From contig VOIU01000005.1 of assembly GCA_007896885.1 (NCBI GenBank), positions 1 through 64,000 on the forward strand: a stretch of DNA of 64,000 bases, in the 5' to 3' direction. Both the position numbers and the translations under genes were made by a program. Source of the stretch: Bacteroidaceae bacterium HV4-6-C5C. GTDB taxonomy: Bacteria > Bacteroidota > Bacteroidia > Bacteroidales > Bacteroidaceae. Positions within the stretch are counted from its first letter, which is position 1; each line of letters begins with the position of its first letter. This document shows positions 56,470 to 61,117 of this stretch, piece by piece. The notes under the pieces are model-generated. The model was not told the DNA's origin. It worked only from the letters and a program-made list of their open reading frames with translations, and did not search any database.

Positions 56470-58839
56470 TTATAATCTTTGTAAATCCTCTTCAGAAACA
56501 TGAGTTCCTTTATAACTTTTAGTTGAACCATTGATGCGATAACTTATTTTCAATGAGATCTTTCGAGAGTCAGGGCGATTCCACTTTGTGTAGGTTAGCT
56601 TTTCACCAAAGAGCATGAAAGAGTTTCTACGTGTATTCCACAAGTCGGAGCAATCAATATTGACGGATAGTCGTTTGTTAAGAAAAGATTTACGTAAACC
56701 GAGGTCCATGCCCCAACAAGATAACTGTAGTGAGGTTTCGGCATTGCCTTCGTTTTGATAATCGGCATTGATTGATAATATAACCTCCCGGGGAAGTTGG
56801 AATGTATTATTCCAAGTAATATACAAATTACCTCTGTTCATATCCTTTGTCCCGCTGAGGCTATTTACCTTAAAGAAAGGTTGAGTAAAATAGACACCGA
56901 GCTCGGGTTTCCAATTGCCTATGGGCGGAGACAGAGTTAATGAAGCATTTAATCTTTCTGACTTACGGAAGTTACCGAAAGTAAATACTGCTACATCCGG
57001 ATTGCTCTCATAACCCTTTGCCATAAATTCGATAGCATTTCCAGTATATTGGTAGCTGAGGGAGAGTTGAATCCAACGGTAAAGAGTGGAGAATTGCAGG
57101 TCGTGATTGGTCTCGGGCGTCAGTAGCGGATTGCCGGCTTCGTAAATAAAGCGGTTGTTATAGCTGACACTACTGCGGAGTAACTGGAAAGACGGGCGAT
57201 TGGTTTTGACGGTATAGCTAAGAGATGTTTTTGCATTTCCAATGGGAAAGTCGACGGATAGGTTGGGACACCAGTTGTTGTATGTCCGACTTTGCTCCGG
57301 GACATAGGCTCCCTTTTCCCAATAAGGGGATGAGGTGTGTTCGAAACGCAATCCGGCTTTGGTACTTATTTTACCGAAGCTATGGACATACTCTGCAAAG
57401 CTTGCAAATTTCTTTTCATCAATGCGACTGTCCGTAATGGGGAGTGTCTCCTGCGGATTATCGAATTTATCTTTACGACGAATAAAGGAGTAATCGGTTC
57501 CACCTTTTAGTGTGCCTTTCCATAGCGGATAAGTGAGGATTAACTTGGCTGCATAAAGATCATTGTATGCGCGGGTGAAAGTGTTTATTCTGCGTACTCC
57601 TTCTGTTTGACTGATCTCTTCTGCATCCTGTCGGTCGTGGCTATCACCTTTCACTATATCTGCTGTGAAGTCGAGGTGAAGCTCTCCGATGCTTCCTTGA
57701 TAATAGAAGTTGAGGCGATGATCATTACTTTGCTGTAAGTCTTTTGACAGATAATTTGTCCGGTCATTCGGAACATTGTTTGCCTTTACCGTGTAGTTGG
57801 TCAGGCAATTATAATGAAATTCCGGAGTGCGGAAGTACTCATAAGATAATCCGATGCTGTGTTTTGGGTTAAAGTCATAAGCCGCACTGAAGTTTCCTCC
57901 AAAAAGTTGCCCGTTGCCGGAGAAACGACTGTTACTATTAATTAGCCATAATGTAGAGGATGACGGAACTTCATATTGTGTGTTCTGGCTGTGTTTACTC
58001 GCGTTATGATTATAATATAACATGCCTGAGAGTAGGAGTCCACCTTTATTATAATTCACATTGATCTGCTCATAATGAGTTGTCCGCCTTCCCTCAATAA
58101 TCCCGGCATTTAGGGTGGTGCTTACTCCTTCATCTTTGCTAAGGGTATAAATACGGATAACTGCTTTTACGTTTGCGTCATACTCCGCTCCCGGATTGTT
58201 GATCAGTTCGATCTTCTTAATATTATCTGCCGATAGACGGTCAAGTTCTGATAAATCCTGCAAACGGCGGTTGTTGACATAGATGACCGGGGTGCCTTTA
58301 CCGAAAACTGTGTAGCCGTCCTCCGTAAGCCGAATGCCCGGAATTTGTTTCAGTACTTCACAGGCATTGCTCAGCGTAGAAAGCAGACTCTGACTGACAT
58401 TCGTTTCCAATATTCCATTTTGTAGCTTATACACTGGACGTCGGGCCGTAACCGTTGCTTCATTCAATGCTATCGATTCCGGTGTGAGCACTTGTCGTAT
58501 TGCCGTTTTCGGGTCGCATGAGATGCAGGCGGTGTGATACCCTACATAAGACATCTGAAGTAGATATTTGCAGGGGGTGACGTTATCGAATAAAAATGTA
58601 CCGTTCGCTTTGGTGCATTTTCCCTCTACAAAAGTAGAGTCTGTCTTGAGAAGGGCTACATTGGCGAATTCGATAGGTTCACCCTTTTCATTAAGTACTA
58701 TGCCACGGATAGATATTTTCCCTTCTTGCGAGTAGGTTGGTGATTTGCTATGTAAAAAGCTACTACTCTTTTCTTGTGCCATGCCTATTCCCAATTGCCT
58801 ACTAAAGAGAATCATAAGACAAATTATAAACTTTTTCAT
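56470..58839 (-). CDS. TonB-dependent outer-membrane receptor (beta-barrel family)
   Basis: 789 residues. Signal peptide (about 1-21), carboxypeptidase-regulatory-like domain (about 42-125, SIRGIVLNEKGEPIEFANVALL), a plug-type domain (about 130-230, LNEATVTARRPVYKLQNGILE...VIYVNNRRL), then a long barrel (about 240-789). It is of the outer membrane beta-barrel type without a SusD partner, and the ligand could be a metal complex, peptide or vitamin. The lipoprotein gene starts 319 bases away on the other strand. Confidence 0.82.
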   Translation of the reverse strand: MKKFIICLMILFSRQLGIGMAQEKSSSFLHSKSPTYSQEGKISIRGIVLNEKGEPIEFANVALLKTDSTFVEGKCTKANGTFLFDNVTPCKYLLQMSYVGYHTACISCDPKTAIRQVLTPESIALNEATVTARRPVYKLQNGILETNVSQSLLSTLSNACEVLKQIPGIRLTEDGYTVFGKGTPVIYVNNRRLQDLSELDRLSADNIKKIELINNPGAEYDANVKAVIRIYTLSKDEGVSTTLNAGIIEGRRTTHYEQINVNYNKGGLLLSGMLYYNHNASKHSQNTQYEVPSSSTLWLINSNSRFSGNGQLFGGNFSAAYDFNPKHSIGLSYEYFRTPEFHYNCLTNYTVKANNVPNDRTNYLSKDLQQSNDHRLNFYYQGSIGELHLDFTADIVKGDSHDRQDAEEISQTEGVRRINTFTRAYNDLYAAKLILTYPLWKGTLKGGTDYSFIRRKDKFDNPQETLPITDSRIDEKKFASFAEYVHSFGKISTKAGLRFEHTSSPYWEKGAYVPEQSRTYNNWCPNLSVDFPIGNAKTSLSYTVKTNRPSFQLLRSSVSYNNRFIYEAGNPLLTPETNHDLQFSTLYRWIQLSLSYQYTGNAIEFMAKGYESNPDVAVFTFGNFRKSERLNASLTLSPPIGNWKPELGVYFTQPFFKVNSLSGTKDMNRGNLYITWNNTFQLPREVILSINADYQNEGNAETSLQLSCWGMDLGLRKSFLNKRLSVNIDCSDLWNTRRNSFMLFGEKLTYTKWNRPDSRKISLKISYRINGSTKSYKGTHVSEEDLQRL

Positions 58840-59158
58840 TGATCATTTTGATTTTAAGTCGCGAAGCTAGTGTCTCCTTATATTAATAATGGAAACTTTT
58901 TGCTAACAACTTCCTGACATTTGCCTGACATTGTAGTTCGCGGCGCCTTATGTTACTGTATAGATTGTTTGGTCGATCTATTGATGCTTTTGGAGATTGA
59001 TTTTTGGAGAGACTTTGGTACTATATCACATTACAGACCCAAAAGTAATAGGACTAAAGCATTAAGATCTACGTTAGTGTTTAATTCTCTGCAAATTATA
59101 ATGCAGTAAAACTATTGTTTTTGCGTTTCAATAAATGAACACATATATTCTATTAATT
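58840..59158. other. Divergent promoter region of receptor and lipoprotein
   Basis: 319 bases between start codons. It holds the 11-bp-spaced direct repeats at 58913-58932 and, on the minus strand, a near -7 box (TAGCTTCG at 58862-58869, one mismatch). The stretch 58940-59130 shows no further element or gene that I can defend. Confidence 0.6.
58913..58932 (-). promoter_or_regulatory. Direct repeat pair, candidate OmpR/PhoB-type operator
   Basis: CCTGACATT occurs at 58913-58921 and 58924-58932, 11 bases apart. Winged-helix regulators of the OmpR/PhoB class bind such direct repeats of one helical turn (the PhoB box is CTGTCAT repeated at 11). The sites lie about 75-93 bases before the receptor ATG, and a regulator with this fold is encoded at 59983-60864. 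Confidence 0.5.
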
Positions 59159-59971
59159 ATGAAACTACAGAATCTCTCAGGAAGTTTGTTACTAATTTTG
59201 CTGACGGTGGCCTTTACCGCGTGTAGCGACAATGAAAGAGAACCTTACTATTTAAGCCTTAGTGTGGATAAATGCGAGGCTCCTATTGGCCGAAATTCGT
59301 ACATTCCCATTCTTAGTGGAAATGGAGATTATGCAATAAAAGTAGCTAACAATGAAATAGTCGAAGCAAAAGCTGACTTTTCAACATATCCTAATATGGC
59401 TTTCGGGGTGATCCGTATACAATCTAAACAGAAAGGGGAGACTATAGTAACAGTGACGGACAATATAACACGTGACGTAAAGACGTTGAAAGTGAAAGTC
59501 ACTGATAATTTTGTTGGCTTTAGAATAACAGAAAGCGATCATCAAGCATTGTCTAAAGAACGTTGGGTTTATCTCGTCGATAATGAATGGAAAGACGCCT
59601 ATTTCTTTGAGAAAGGAAATAATGGAATTCGAGGTCTTTTAGCACACGGAAGTTATCAGTTTACCGTGGAAAGCAGCATTCCCTATCTGACTCTTTATTA
59701 CTCAGAAAGTAACGGACAATTTACCGATGCTACAATAGCACCTGTTCCGCATAAGTTTAATATTAAAGATAATAAGGAAGTGACTTTTAATTTATTAAGT
59801 TATATGTTGCATGTAGATTGGGGCACATTAGGAGCTTTCACAAAGATGCAATATACACGAACGTCCGTAACAGTGCCTGTTTATATGCGTATGAAAGCAG
59901 AAGGTACGGATAAAGTAGTCACGGCGGTTTACGATTATAATTATATTCCCCAAGGAGTATTACAAGATTAA
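59159..59971 (+). CDS. Unknown lipoprotein with Ig-like domain
   Basis: About 270 residues from the ATG at 59159, which gives a good lipoprotein signal (lipobox TACSDN, Cys22); the upstream ATG at 59135 adds 8 residues. The first 90 residues after the signal resemble a bacterial Ig-like (BIG) domain with IVEAKADF...GETIVTVTDN; the rest is beta-rich, and ends in TAVYDYNYIPQG. No family recognised. It lies opposite the TonB-dependent receptor and is convergent (11-base gap) with the membrane regulator, so the three probably form one unit. Confidence 0.6.
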   Translation: MKLQNLSGSLLLILLTVAFTACSDNEREPYYLSLSVDKCEAPIGRNSYIPILSGNGDYAIKVANNEIVEAKADFSTYPNMAFGVIRIQSKQKGETIVTVTDNITRDVKTLKVKVTDNFVGFRITESDHQALSKERWVYLVDNEWKDAYFFEKGNNGIRGLLAHGSYQFTVESSIPYLTLYYSESNGQFTDATIAPVPHKFNIKDNKEVTFNLLSYMLHVDWGTLGAFTKMQYTRTSVTVPVYMRMKAEGTDKVVTAVYDYNYIPQGVLQD

Positions 59972-59982
59972 TGGATTTCAAA

Positions 59983-60864
59983 TTAAGCCAATTCCAAAAT
60001 GTAAGCCCTTCCTCGTTCTGTGTTGATTTTTAGATTGGCATGCTCCTCAATAATGGGTTTCAATCGTCGTATGAGGGTGTAAAGCGTTTCATCTGCGTTA
60101 TCTTTGCCGGGCCAAAGTGATTGGCAGATATCGGATTTTAAAAGAACATGTGAAGGTGAGAGGTAGAACATCTCCATTAATGTGTATTGCATAGGAGTCA
60201 ATTTAAACCTTTCTTTATTTTCATTGTAGAAGCAACCTTCTTCGAGGGCGAGTGACAGACTCCCGAAATGGATTGTCTGATTTTTCCTCTCGTTATTGCT
60301 TATAGTTTTCTTTTTCTTACGTAAATAGAAGAGTGAAAATCCTCCCCAGAGCAGTGTAGCTAATAGTAATGATCCGGGGATGGATTGCTTCGACAGACTG
60401 AGAATCAGTCCTGTAGAACATCTGACATACCCCCTGAACGAGAGTGCCACTCCCGAACCTTCAACGTTTGTTGAAGCCCACACCAATGTGTCACTTGCCA
60501 AATATCCACCAGGGATATTGCTTGATAAGGCGGTTGGAGCACCTTTTTTAAGAATATGCAATGAAAGACCGGCTACTTTTCTCAATTCGGTGATCGATAA
60601 GGCCTCTTTGAAATCTTCGCTGGGACTGCTTACAGCTATGAAGCCTCCCATAGCACTCTGTAATTCTGAGTAAGCACGTATTGTATCGGCATTCAACCAC
60701 AAATCTCTGTTTTTTAGCACAGTCTGCCGCAATGCTCGGTTTAGATCTGACACAATATGCTGCTTTGCCTCCGAATAATTGCGATACCCGAAGCCAAATG
60801 ATAACATCAACAATACAAAGGTGAATGTTATGGATAAATTTGATGCAGTAGTATAATGCCTCAC
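59983..60864 (-). CDS. Membrane-anchored OmpR/PhoB-type winged-helix regulator
   Basis: 293 residues, GTG start at 60864. One N-terminal span (about 9-27), an extracytoplasmic domain (about 28-160), a second span (about 163-181) and a cytoplasmic C-terminal winged helix (about 195-290; LTPMQYTLMEMFYLSPSHVLLKSDICQSLWPGKDNADETLYTLIRRLKPIIEE). This is a one-component design with the DNA-binding domain C-terminal, opposite to ToxR, with the sensor domain outside. It would respond to an extracytoplasmic signal and regulate the receptor/lipoprotein genes. No kinase partner and no receiver domain is present. Confidence 0.75.
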   Translation of the reverse strand: MRHYTTASNLSITFTFVLLMLSFGFGYRNYSEAKQHIVSDLNRALRQTVLKNRDLWLNADTIRAYSELQSAMGGFIAVSSPSEDFKEALSITELRKVAGLSLHILKKGAPTALSSNIPGGYLASDTLVWASTNVEGSGVALSFRGYVRCSTGLILSLSKQSIPGSLLLATLLWGGFSLFYLRKKKKTISNNERKNQTIHFGSLSLALEEGCFYNENKERFKLTPMQYTLMEMFYLSPSHVLLKSDICQSLWPGKDNADETLYTLIRRLKPIIEEHANLKINTERGRAYILELA

Positions 60865-61057
60865 GCTGCAAAAATATAAAAAGTCCCTCGATTGGCAATC
60901 TCTTTACTCTAGAATTAAATTTGGTTCGATCTTTATACTTCCTTTGCTAGTTAAGCTTGGTCTGTATCGTTGCCTTTTCTTTCTGACTGAGACTTGCCGG
61001 TTATAAAGGCCTGATTGTATAACGTGAAACTTTGGGTTTGATACGTGCTTTATACAA

Positions 61058-61095
61058 TTAAAAAGGGAAGTTTCATGTGAAACTTCCCTTTTTAA
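61058..61095. terminator. Strong bidirectional terminator after rpsO
   Basis: A perfect 18-bp stem (TTAAAAAGGGAAGTTTCA at 61058-61075, its complement at 61078-61095) with a 2-base centre (a tight loop in practice) and A/T arms. It lies 22 bases after the rpsO stop and ends the minus-strand transcript. Confidence 0.85.
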
Positions 61096-61117
61096 TGTCT
61101 TTACCGTAAGTAATGGA

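Follow-up and report, generated by a model that had tools for sequence, protein, structure and literature searches.

We analyzed a window of 64,000 nucleotides (nt) of DNA from Bacteroidaceae bacterium HV4-6-C5C (contig VOIU01000005.1, positions 1 to 64,000), with emphasis on the gene for a membrane-anchored regulator that has a PhoB-type winged helix, and on the nearby gene for a TonB-dependent outer-membrane receptor. Regulator and receptor form a conserved pair in related genomes, and a short direct repeat with a period of 11 base pairs (bp) lies upstream of the receptor at a conserved distance from its promoter. The explanation that we favor, and that comparison of sequences makes probable, is that the regulator is a one-component activator of the receptor gene that acts through this array of TGTCAG half-sites. 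The original prediction, which was made from the window's letters alone, had combined the receptor, an intervening lipoprotein and the regulator into one signalling and uptake unit controlled by the repeat, in which the regulator would read an outside signal and take the place of hybrid two-component systems or of sigma/anti-sigma pairs of the extracytoplasmic-function type. Pfam matches, open reading frames (ORFs) and structural models agree that a receptor without SusD, a lipoprotein and the regulator are located where that prediction placed them, and its interpretation as a whole is partly supported.

The repeat had been reported as two copies of CCTGACATT with 11-bp spacing. The two copies are exact (58913-58932, forward strand, 11 nt from start to start), and a search for the pair that allowed three mismatches gave a single match in 64 kb, where 0.01 is expected. 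What had been missed is that the receptor's coding strand reads ATGTCAG-GCAA-ATGTCAG, and that a third, weaker copy, TTGTTAG, is situated one period further downstream, for a total of three copies in the window. The genome to which the window belongs (3.83 Mb) has a single exact copy of the 12-base motif, and this genome's other exact TGTCA-N6-TGTCA pairs fall inside ORFs, according to the ORF calls. A loose scan of the window for the motif, with three mismatches, performs at chance (21 found versus 17.7 expected), and therefore only the near-exact array is informative. A separate repeat search of the intergenic region listed another 9-nt pair and not the operator pair.

The regulator has no second match of its kind in the window's genome. 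Of the 151 Bacteroidaceae genomes sampled, 39 contain a match to it, as do 12 of 80 genomes of the genus, 6 of 294 at the order level (using a profile) and 4 of 394 at the phylum level, all of these within the window's order. Its distribution in the sampled genomes is thus patchy and confined to Bacteroidales. We gathered 67 regulator loci and removed four duplicates (L043, L044, L188 and L189), which leaves 63 non-redundant loci; 12 loci come from named genome records, including Bacteroides rodentium, B. heparinolyticus and Parabacteroides faecis. A homologous receptor is encoded at most 1.5 kb from the regulator in 47 of the 63 loci (41 downstream on the same strand, 5 divergent and 1 convergent), and the gap to a same-strand downstream receptor is often below 150 bp. 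PF14905 has 21 matches in the whole of the window's genome, so adjacency of such a receptor and the regulator would rarely arise by chance. Distances between regulators are correlated with distances between their receptors (r = 0.77, without a control for the species tree) in 45 of the 47 pairs, receptor fragments below 450 amino acids (aa) being left out, and none of 999 permutations gave a value as high. The predicted association of regulator and receptor is therefore upheld, and the two are a conserved pair, while the trio with the lipoprotein is not a conserved unit.

Sixteen loci have no partner that matches the receptor profile. Several of these adjoin a large TMEM260-like gene, two are at contig ends (L059 and L079), three have truncated regulators, and at L071 the neighbor has PF14905 according to Pfam. 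The truncated regulators (L042, L194 and L196; open frames of 142-144 aa) retain the winged helix, have lost the outside domain, and have neither receptor nor site nearby, a pattern that resembles joint decay of the entire unit. We also observed a regulator subfamily (L055, L057, L060, L062, L063 and L077) that adjoins a gene of roughly 1000 aa, with a TGTCAG array between both genes. This neighbor is TMEM260-like (PF11028) by Pfam in L055, L060 and L077, and by length only in L057, L062 and L063.

Among 37 receptor upstream regions, 33 contain an exact direct repeat with period 11 and a length of at least 6 nt. Every other period between 7 and 30 is represented in 1 to 7 regions, save period 22 (13 regions); in shuffled sequences, the count averages 2.3 and reaches at most 7. 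The repeat unit is TGTCAG, usually preceded by A or T, and is present in two, three or four copies in 17, 28 and 8 loci, respectively. Each column of the half-site is identical in 143-147 of 150 copies, although these copies were chosen for their resemblance. We scanned from -400 to +1300 relative to each regulator for TGTCAG-N5-TGTCAG with at least 11 of 12 bases matching, and found such a site in 53 of the 63 loci, versus 5 in 486 kb of flanking DNA.

The array is also phased relative to a promoter element. The -7 consensus of sigma-ABfr is TAnnTTTG, as given in PMC7366714. A TAnnTT[TC]G box follows the last copy of the repeat in 41 of the 53 loci, at an offset of 31 (1 locus), 32 (17), 33 (22) or 22 nt (1). 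The sole further offset is 4, which was seen in three loci that have a box at 32 as well. When a longer tail was scanned, L031, L032, L033, L038 and L077 were found to have a box at offset 44, i.e., one period further. A scan for sigma-70-type promoters was at chance, as expected for this phylum. Taken together, the array is a phylogenetic footprint and a putative operator resembling a Pho box.

Among the 151 Bacteroidaceae genomes, WTGTCAG-N4-WTGTCAG is present in 36 of 39 that have the regulator and in 15 of 112 that do not (Fisher p = 2.4e-19). Loci in which a TMEM260-like neighbor takes the receptor's place have the motif as well, and the motif therefore tracks the regulator and not the receptor. 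Thus, the 11-bp repeat that the original prediction singled out is a conserved element that keeps phase with the receptor promoter and is associated with the regulator across individual genomes.

Motif sites away from regulators suggest a small in-trans regulon in some genomes, which we label Prevotella-like as a guess. We fetched 20 such sites, which are part of a longer list. Six lead into ORFs matching the receptor profile (L139, L143, L144, L145, L146 and L147), one into a PF14905 protein (L153), one into a TMEM260-like protein (L137), two into what look by eye like TMEM260-like proteins (L138 and L141) and two into thioredoxin-like proteins (L140 and L148); the rest are in coding DNA or unclear. 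Separately, one genome (G131) has four identical copies of TTGTCAGCAACTTGTCAG on contigs C3, C6, C8 and C27 (L156 covers one), probably as part of a repeated element.

The regulator's only Pfam match is Trans_reg_C (PF00486) at residues 218-290 (1.1e-9, above the gathering score), and no receiver domain was found. Its AlphaFold model (pLDDT 81.4) consists of a helix (2-51), an outside alpha/beta domain, a second long helix (161-193), within which the sequence RKKKK falls, and a winged helix (197-292). Hydrophobic helices within 2-51 and 161-193 are predicted to flank the outside domain of about 130 residues. These results bear out the earlier description of two spans, an outside domain and a C-terminal OmpR/PhoB-type helix-turn-helix. 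The winged helix aligns with PhoB in the PhoB-Pho box structure 1gxp over 98 residues at 2.2 A, and its fold also matches domains of PhoB, PhoP and SaeR (Z 10-13). With its Trans_reg_C winged helix and a putative tandem operator of approximately 11-bp period, the protein has the features of the OmpR/PhoB type. It also combines a winged helix, membrane spans and a periplasmic domain in one protein, according to the predicted topology, which is the trait of ToxR/CadC-type proteins. As for the gene itself, a -7-like box, TATTTTTG, at 60869-60876 on the reverse strand ends a few bases ahead of the regulator's GTG codon, which would imply either a leaderless transcript or a later start codon. A hairpin with flanking T and A runs, recognized by eye and unlisted by the terminator scan, lies upstream of the regulator at 61060-61100, after rpsO, and may separate the regulator from this ribosomal-protein gene.

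The receptor has CarboxypepD_reg domains, one of them N-terminal, a plug region whose profile matches SusC and colicin I receptor chains, and an OMP_b-brl_3 barrel (2.1e-61), and so is a PF14905-type TonB-dependent receptor. The STN domain of FecA-type signalling receptors is absent from its Pfam matches up to E 10, and the ORF on its far side encodes a cupin/helix-turn-helix protein and not SusD. Partner receptors fall into two groups that share homology in both plug and barrel. The first has CarboxypepD_reg and PF14905; the second, of approximately 690 residues, has no Pfam match. Six of eight partner receptors scanned, all in the latter group, have no Pfam match. An iterated profile and a profile-profile comparison (probability 99.1, E 1.5e-18, 614 columns) connect this group with the receptor of the window; no solved structural relative of the group was found.

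Table 1. Features of the window that are discussed in the text
Feature	Positions	Strand	Remarks
Outer-membrane receptor, CarboxypepD_reg + OMP_b-brl_3 (PF14905), 789 aa	56470..58839	-	Pfam; conserved partner of the regulator
Receptor -7 promoter box TAGCTTCG	58862..58869	-	33 nt after the last operator copy; offset conserved
Putative operator array ATGTCAG, ATGTCAG, TTGTTAG, start-to-start 11 nt	58903..58931	-	Conserved in relatives; corresponds to CCTGACATT x2 on the other strand
Lipoprotein gene between regulator and receptor	59159..59971 (or start 59135)	+	Judged a bystander
Membrane-anchored winged-helix regulator	59983..60864	-	293 aa, GTG start; Pfam and structure model
Regulator PhoB-type winged helix, residues 194-293	59986..60285	-	VIA-align Z 12.9 to 1gxp
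Regulator periplasmic domain (predicted), residues 30-161	60382..60777	-	Models; fold not recognised

We propose the following mechanism. Two spans in the inner membrane would flank the periplasmic domain and leave the C-terminal winged helix in the cytoplasm. Winged helices would bind head-to-tail on TGTCAG half-sites at the 11-bp period, the last of which ends 32-33 nt upstream of the -7 box (TAnnTT[T/C]G) of the receptor gene. In the active state of the periplasmic domain, the regulator would recruit RNA polymerase containing sigma-ABfr, and the receptor gene would be turned on. Since the operator is located between both genes rather than ahead of the regulator, it is presumably only the receptor that is switched. 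In loci with both genes on the same strand, no array was found upstream of the regulator, the one exception being an 11/12 match in L075 at a distance of 531 bp, and therefore the regulator is probably not self-regulated. The signal would probably be the receptor's cargo or the state of the envelope.

Our confidence varies among the parts of this proposal. That the regulator binds the array is very likely. Activation is likely as well, in view of the promoter geometry. Sensing in the periplasm is a somewhat less secure proposition: because the periplasmic domain has no recognised fold, it is the predicted topology that suggests sensing. That the cargo specifically is the signal is a tentative idea, and somewhat doubtful.

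Several observations weigh against the activator model. Ten of the 63 loci lack a site at 11/12. Among them, L041 and L051 have correctly phased 10/12 arrays, L059 and L079 are at contig ends, and L042, L194 and L196 are the truncated cases; at L078 the site is located at a receptor pointing the other way, while L171 and L193 are unaccounted for. In addition, 15 of the genomes without the regulator contain the motif, the window's own -7 box differs from the consensus at one base, and the correlation of distances stands without the species-tree control mentioned above. The outside domain has no Pfam match, and yields no usable fold match, either within the full model or modelled alone (pLDDT 82.7). 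For the domain alone, Foldseek gave no match below E 0.001, and the best VIA match is an unrelated enzyme (Z 6.2); it might nevertheless have a PAS or Cache fold.

The regulator might instead bind the array as a repressor, and release the receptor gene when its outside domain is engaged. The evidence for binding is the same for both hypotheses, and sequence alone does not fix the sign. However, the array does not cover the start site; it precedes the -7 box by a fixed 32-33 nt, with helical phase kept across loci, and a location upstream of the -7 box is the usual place for an activator of the OmpR/PhoB family. We therefore regard repression as improbable.

Slightly less probable still is that the array is the Pho box of an ordinary PhoB, the receptor being a phosphate-starvation gene and the membrane regulator doing something else. 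The array resembles the E. coli Pho box in its TGTCA repeats and 11-bp period, and the window's genome does encode a PhoB above the NCBIfam cut-off. Moreover, PMC8115612 places the gene for the PF14905 TonB transporter Fjoh_0545 of Flavobacterium johnsoniae next to that for PhoB within the PhoBR operon, and reports its strong induction upon depletion of phosphate. However, the motif follows the regulator across genomes in the proportions given above, and stays with it where TMEM260-like genes replace the receptor. In the window's genome, the region before pstC lacks a TGTCAG pair (best 8/12) and has another 11-bp repeat, ATTACAA (TTGTAAT on the other strand), and its PhoB differs from the regulator in sequence at the recognition helix (DRTIDVNITRLRKK against DETLYTLIRRLKPI). 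Having tested the Pho-box explanation against the pst operon and the genome-wide association, we judge it unlikely. As a separate observation, the ATTACAA repeat before pstC (L204:2936-3205) is a candidate Bacteroides Pho box.

The proposed activator shares features with several known systems. Like ToxR and CadC, it would be a membrane-anchored protein that has a periplasmic domain and a winged helix of the PhoB/OmpR type but neither receiver nor kinase, and the structural matches include the DNA-binding domains of CadC (VIA, 5ju7, Z 10.7) and ToxR (Foldseek, 8b4b). However, ToxR and CadC have an N-terminal winged helix and one span, followed by a C-terminal periplasmic domain; here, the winged helix (197-292 of 293 residues) comes after both spans, and no ToxS-like partner was seen. 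With PhoB it shares the winged-helix fold and direct repeats of TGTCA-type half-sites at an 11-bp period, but it is membrane-anchored without a receiver, its half-site ends in CAG, and its motif does not track the pst operon. Hybrid two-component systems of Bacteroides likewise combine periplasmic sensor (predicted here), spans and DNA-binding domain in one polypeptide, but they have a histidine kinase and receiver, which the regulator lacks, and an AraC-type domain in place of the winged helix. As in FecA-type sigma/anti-sigma systems with extracytoplasmic-function sigma factors, a trans-envelope route would link the gene of an outer-membrane receptor with a protein of the inner membrane; in contrast to them, the receptor has no STN domain by Pfam, and no sigma or anti-sigma gene was recognized beside the pair in the window. 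The F. johnsoniae operon (PMC8115612) also places a PF14905 receptor next to a PhoB-type regulator gene, but there the regulator, PhoB, is soluble and forms a two-component system with PhoR.

While winged helices, TonB receptors and one-component membrane regulators are already known as parts, the domain order, the lineage-wide operator and the regulator-receptor pairing are undescribed so far as our literature search shows. We found no description of this regulator family in the open-licence PMC literature, although it may have been described elsewhere. For many outer-membrane receptors of Bacteroidales no regulator is known, and the results offer a family of regulators together with an operator sequence and promoter geometry that are open to scanning and testing. 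They also suggest a path from the envelope to a promoter that needs neither sigma/anti-sigma pairs nor a phosphorelay, and receptors and other genes bearing the same array are candidate members of a shared response.

A broader hypothesis, for which we put the chances at a little under even, would make these regulators a distinct, Bacteroidales-restricted trans-envelope class: a sensor-span-winged-helix protein that reverses the order of ToxR's parts, works without phosphorylation and reads a TGTCAG-N5 array usually just past its own stop codon. It would be a one-gene switch in Bacteroides and, in Prevotella-like genomes, would also control a small in-trans regulon (receptors, thioredoxin-like and TMEM260-like proteins). 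Under this hypothesis, the short distances between regulator gene, operator and receptor might enable the tethered protein to reach its own site during co-translational insertion.

The lipoprotein ORF begins with a hydrophobic stretch ending in LTVAFTAC-S and has no Pfam or NCBIfam match. Relatives were detected in 8 of the 151 family genomes, the window's own included; the best four have 33-39% identity and are encoded away from regulator genes, and none lies beside the regulator in the other loci examined. The slot between regulator and receptor is variable: in B. rodentium (L031), L185 and L186, it is occupied by a DUF4251 gene on the regulator's strand. Although the three genes are adjacent in the window, these data, along with an operator that is more than 200 bp from the lipoprotein's start, on the receptor side, and phased to the receptor's -7 box only, make a three-gene unit under the repeat very improbable. 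We therefore rejected the lipoprotein's predicted membership, so that only the repeat and the regulator-receptor pair, and not the trio, show the conservation that had been anticipated; the gene appears to be a species-specific insertion and a bystander. Two of its best four relatives (L164 and L165) are approximately 1.5 kb or less from an ORF that by eye resembles a mobilisation gene.

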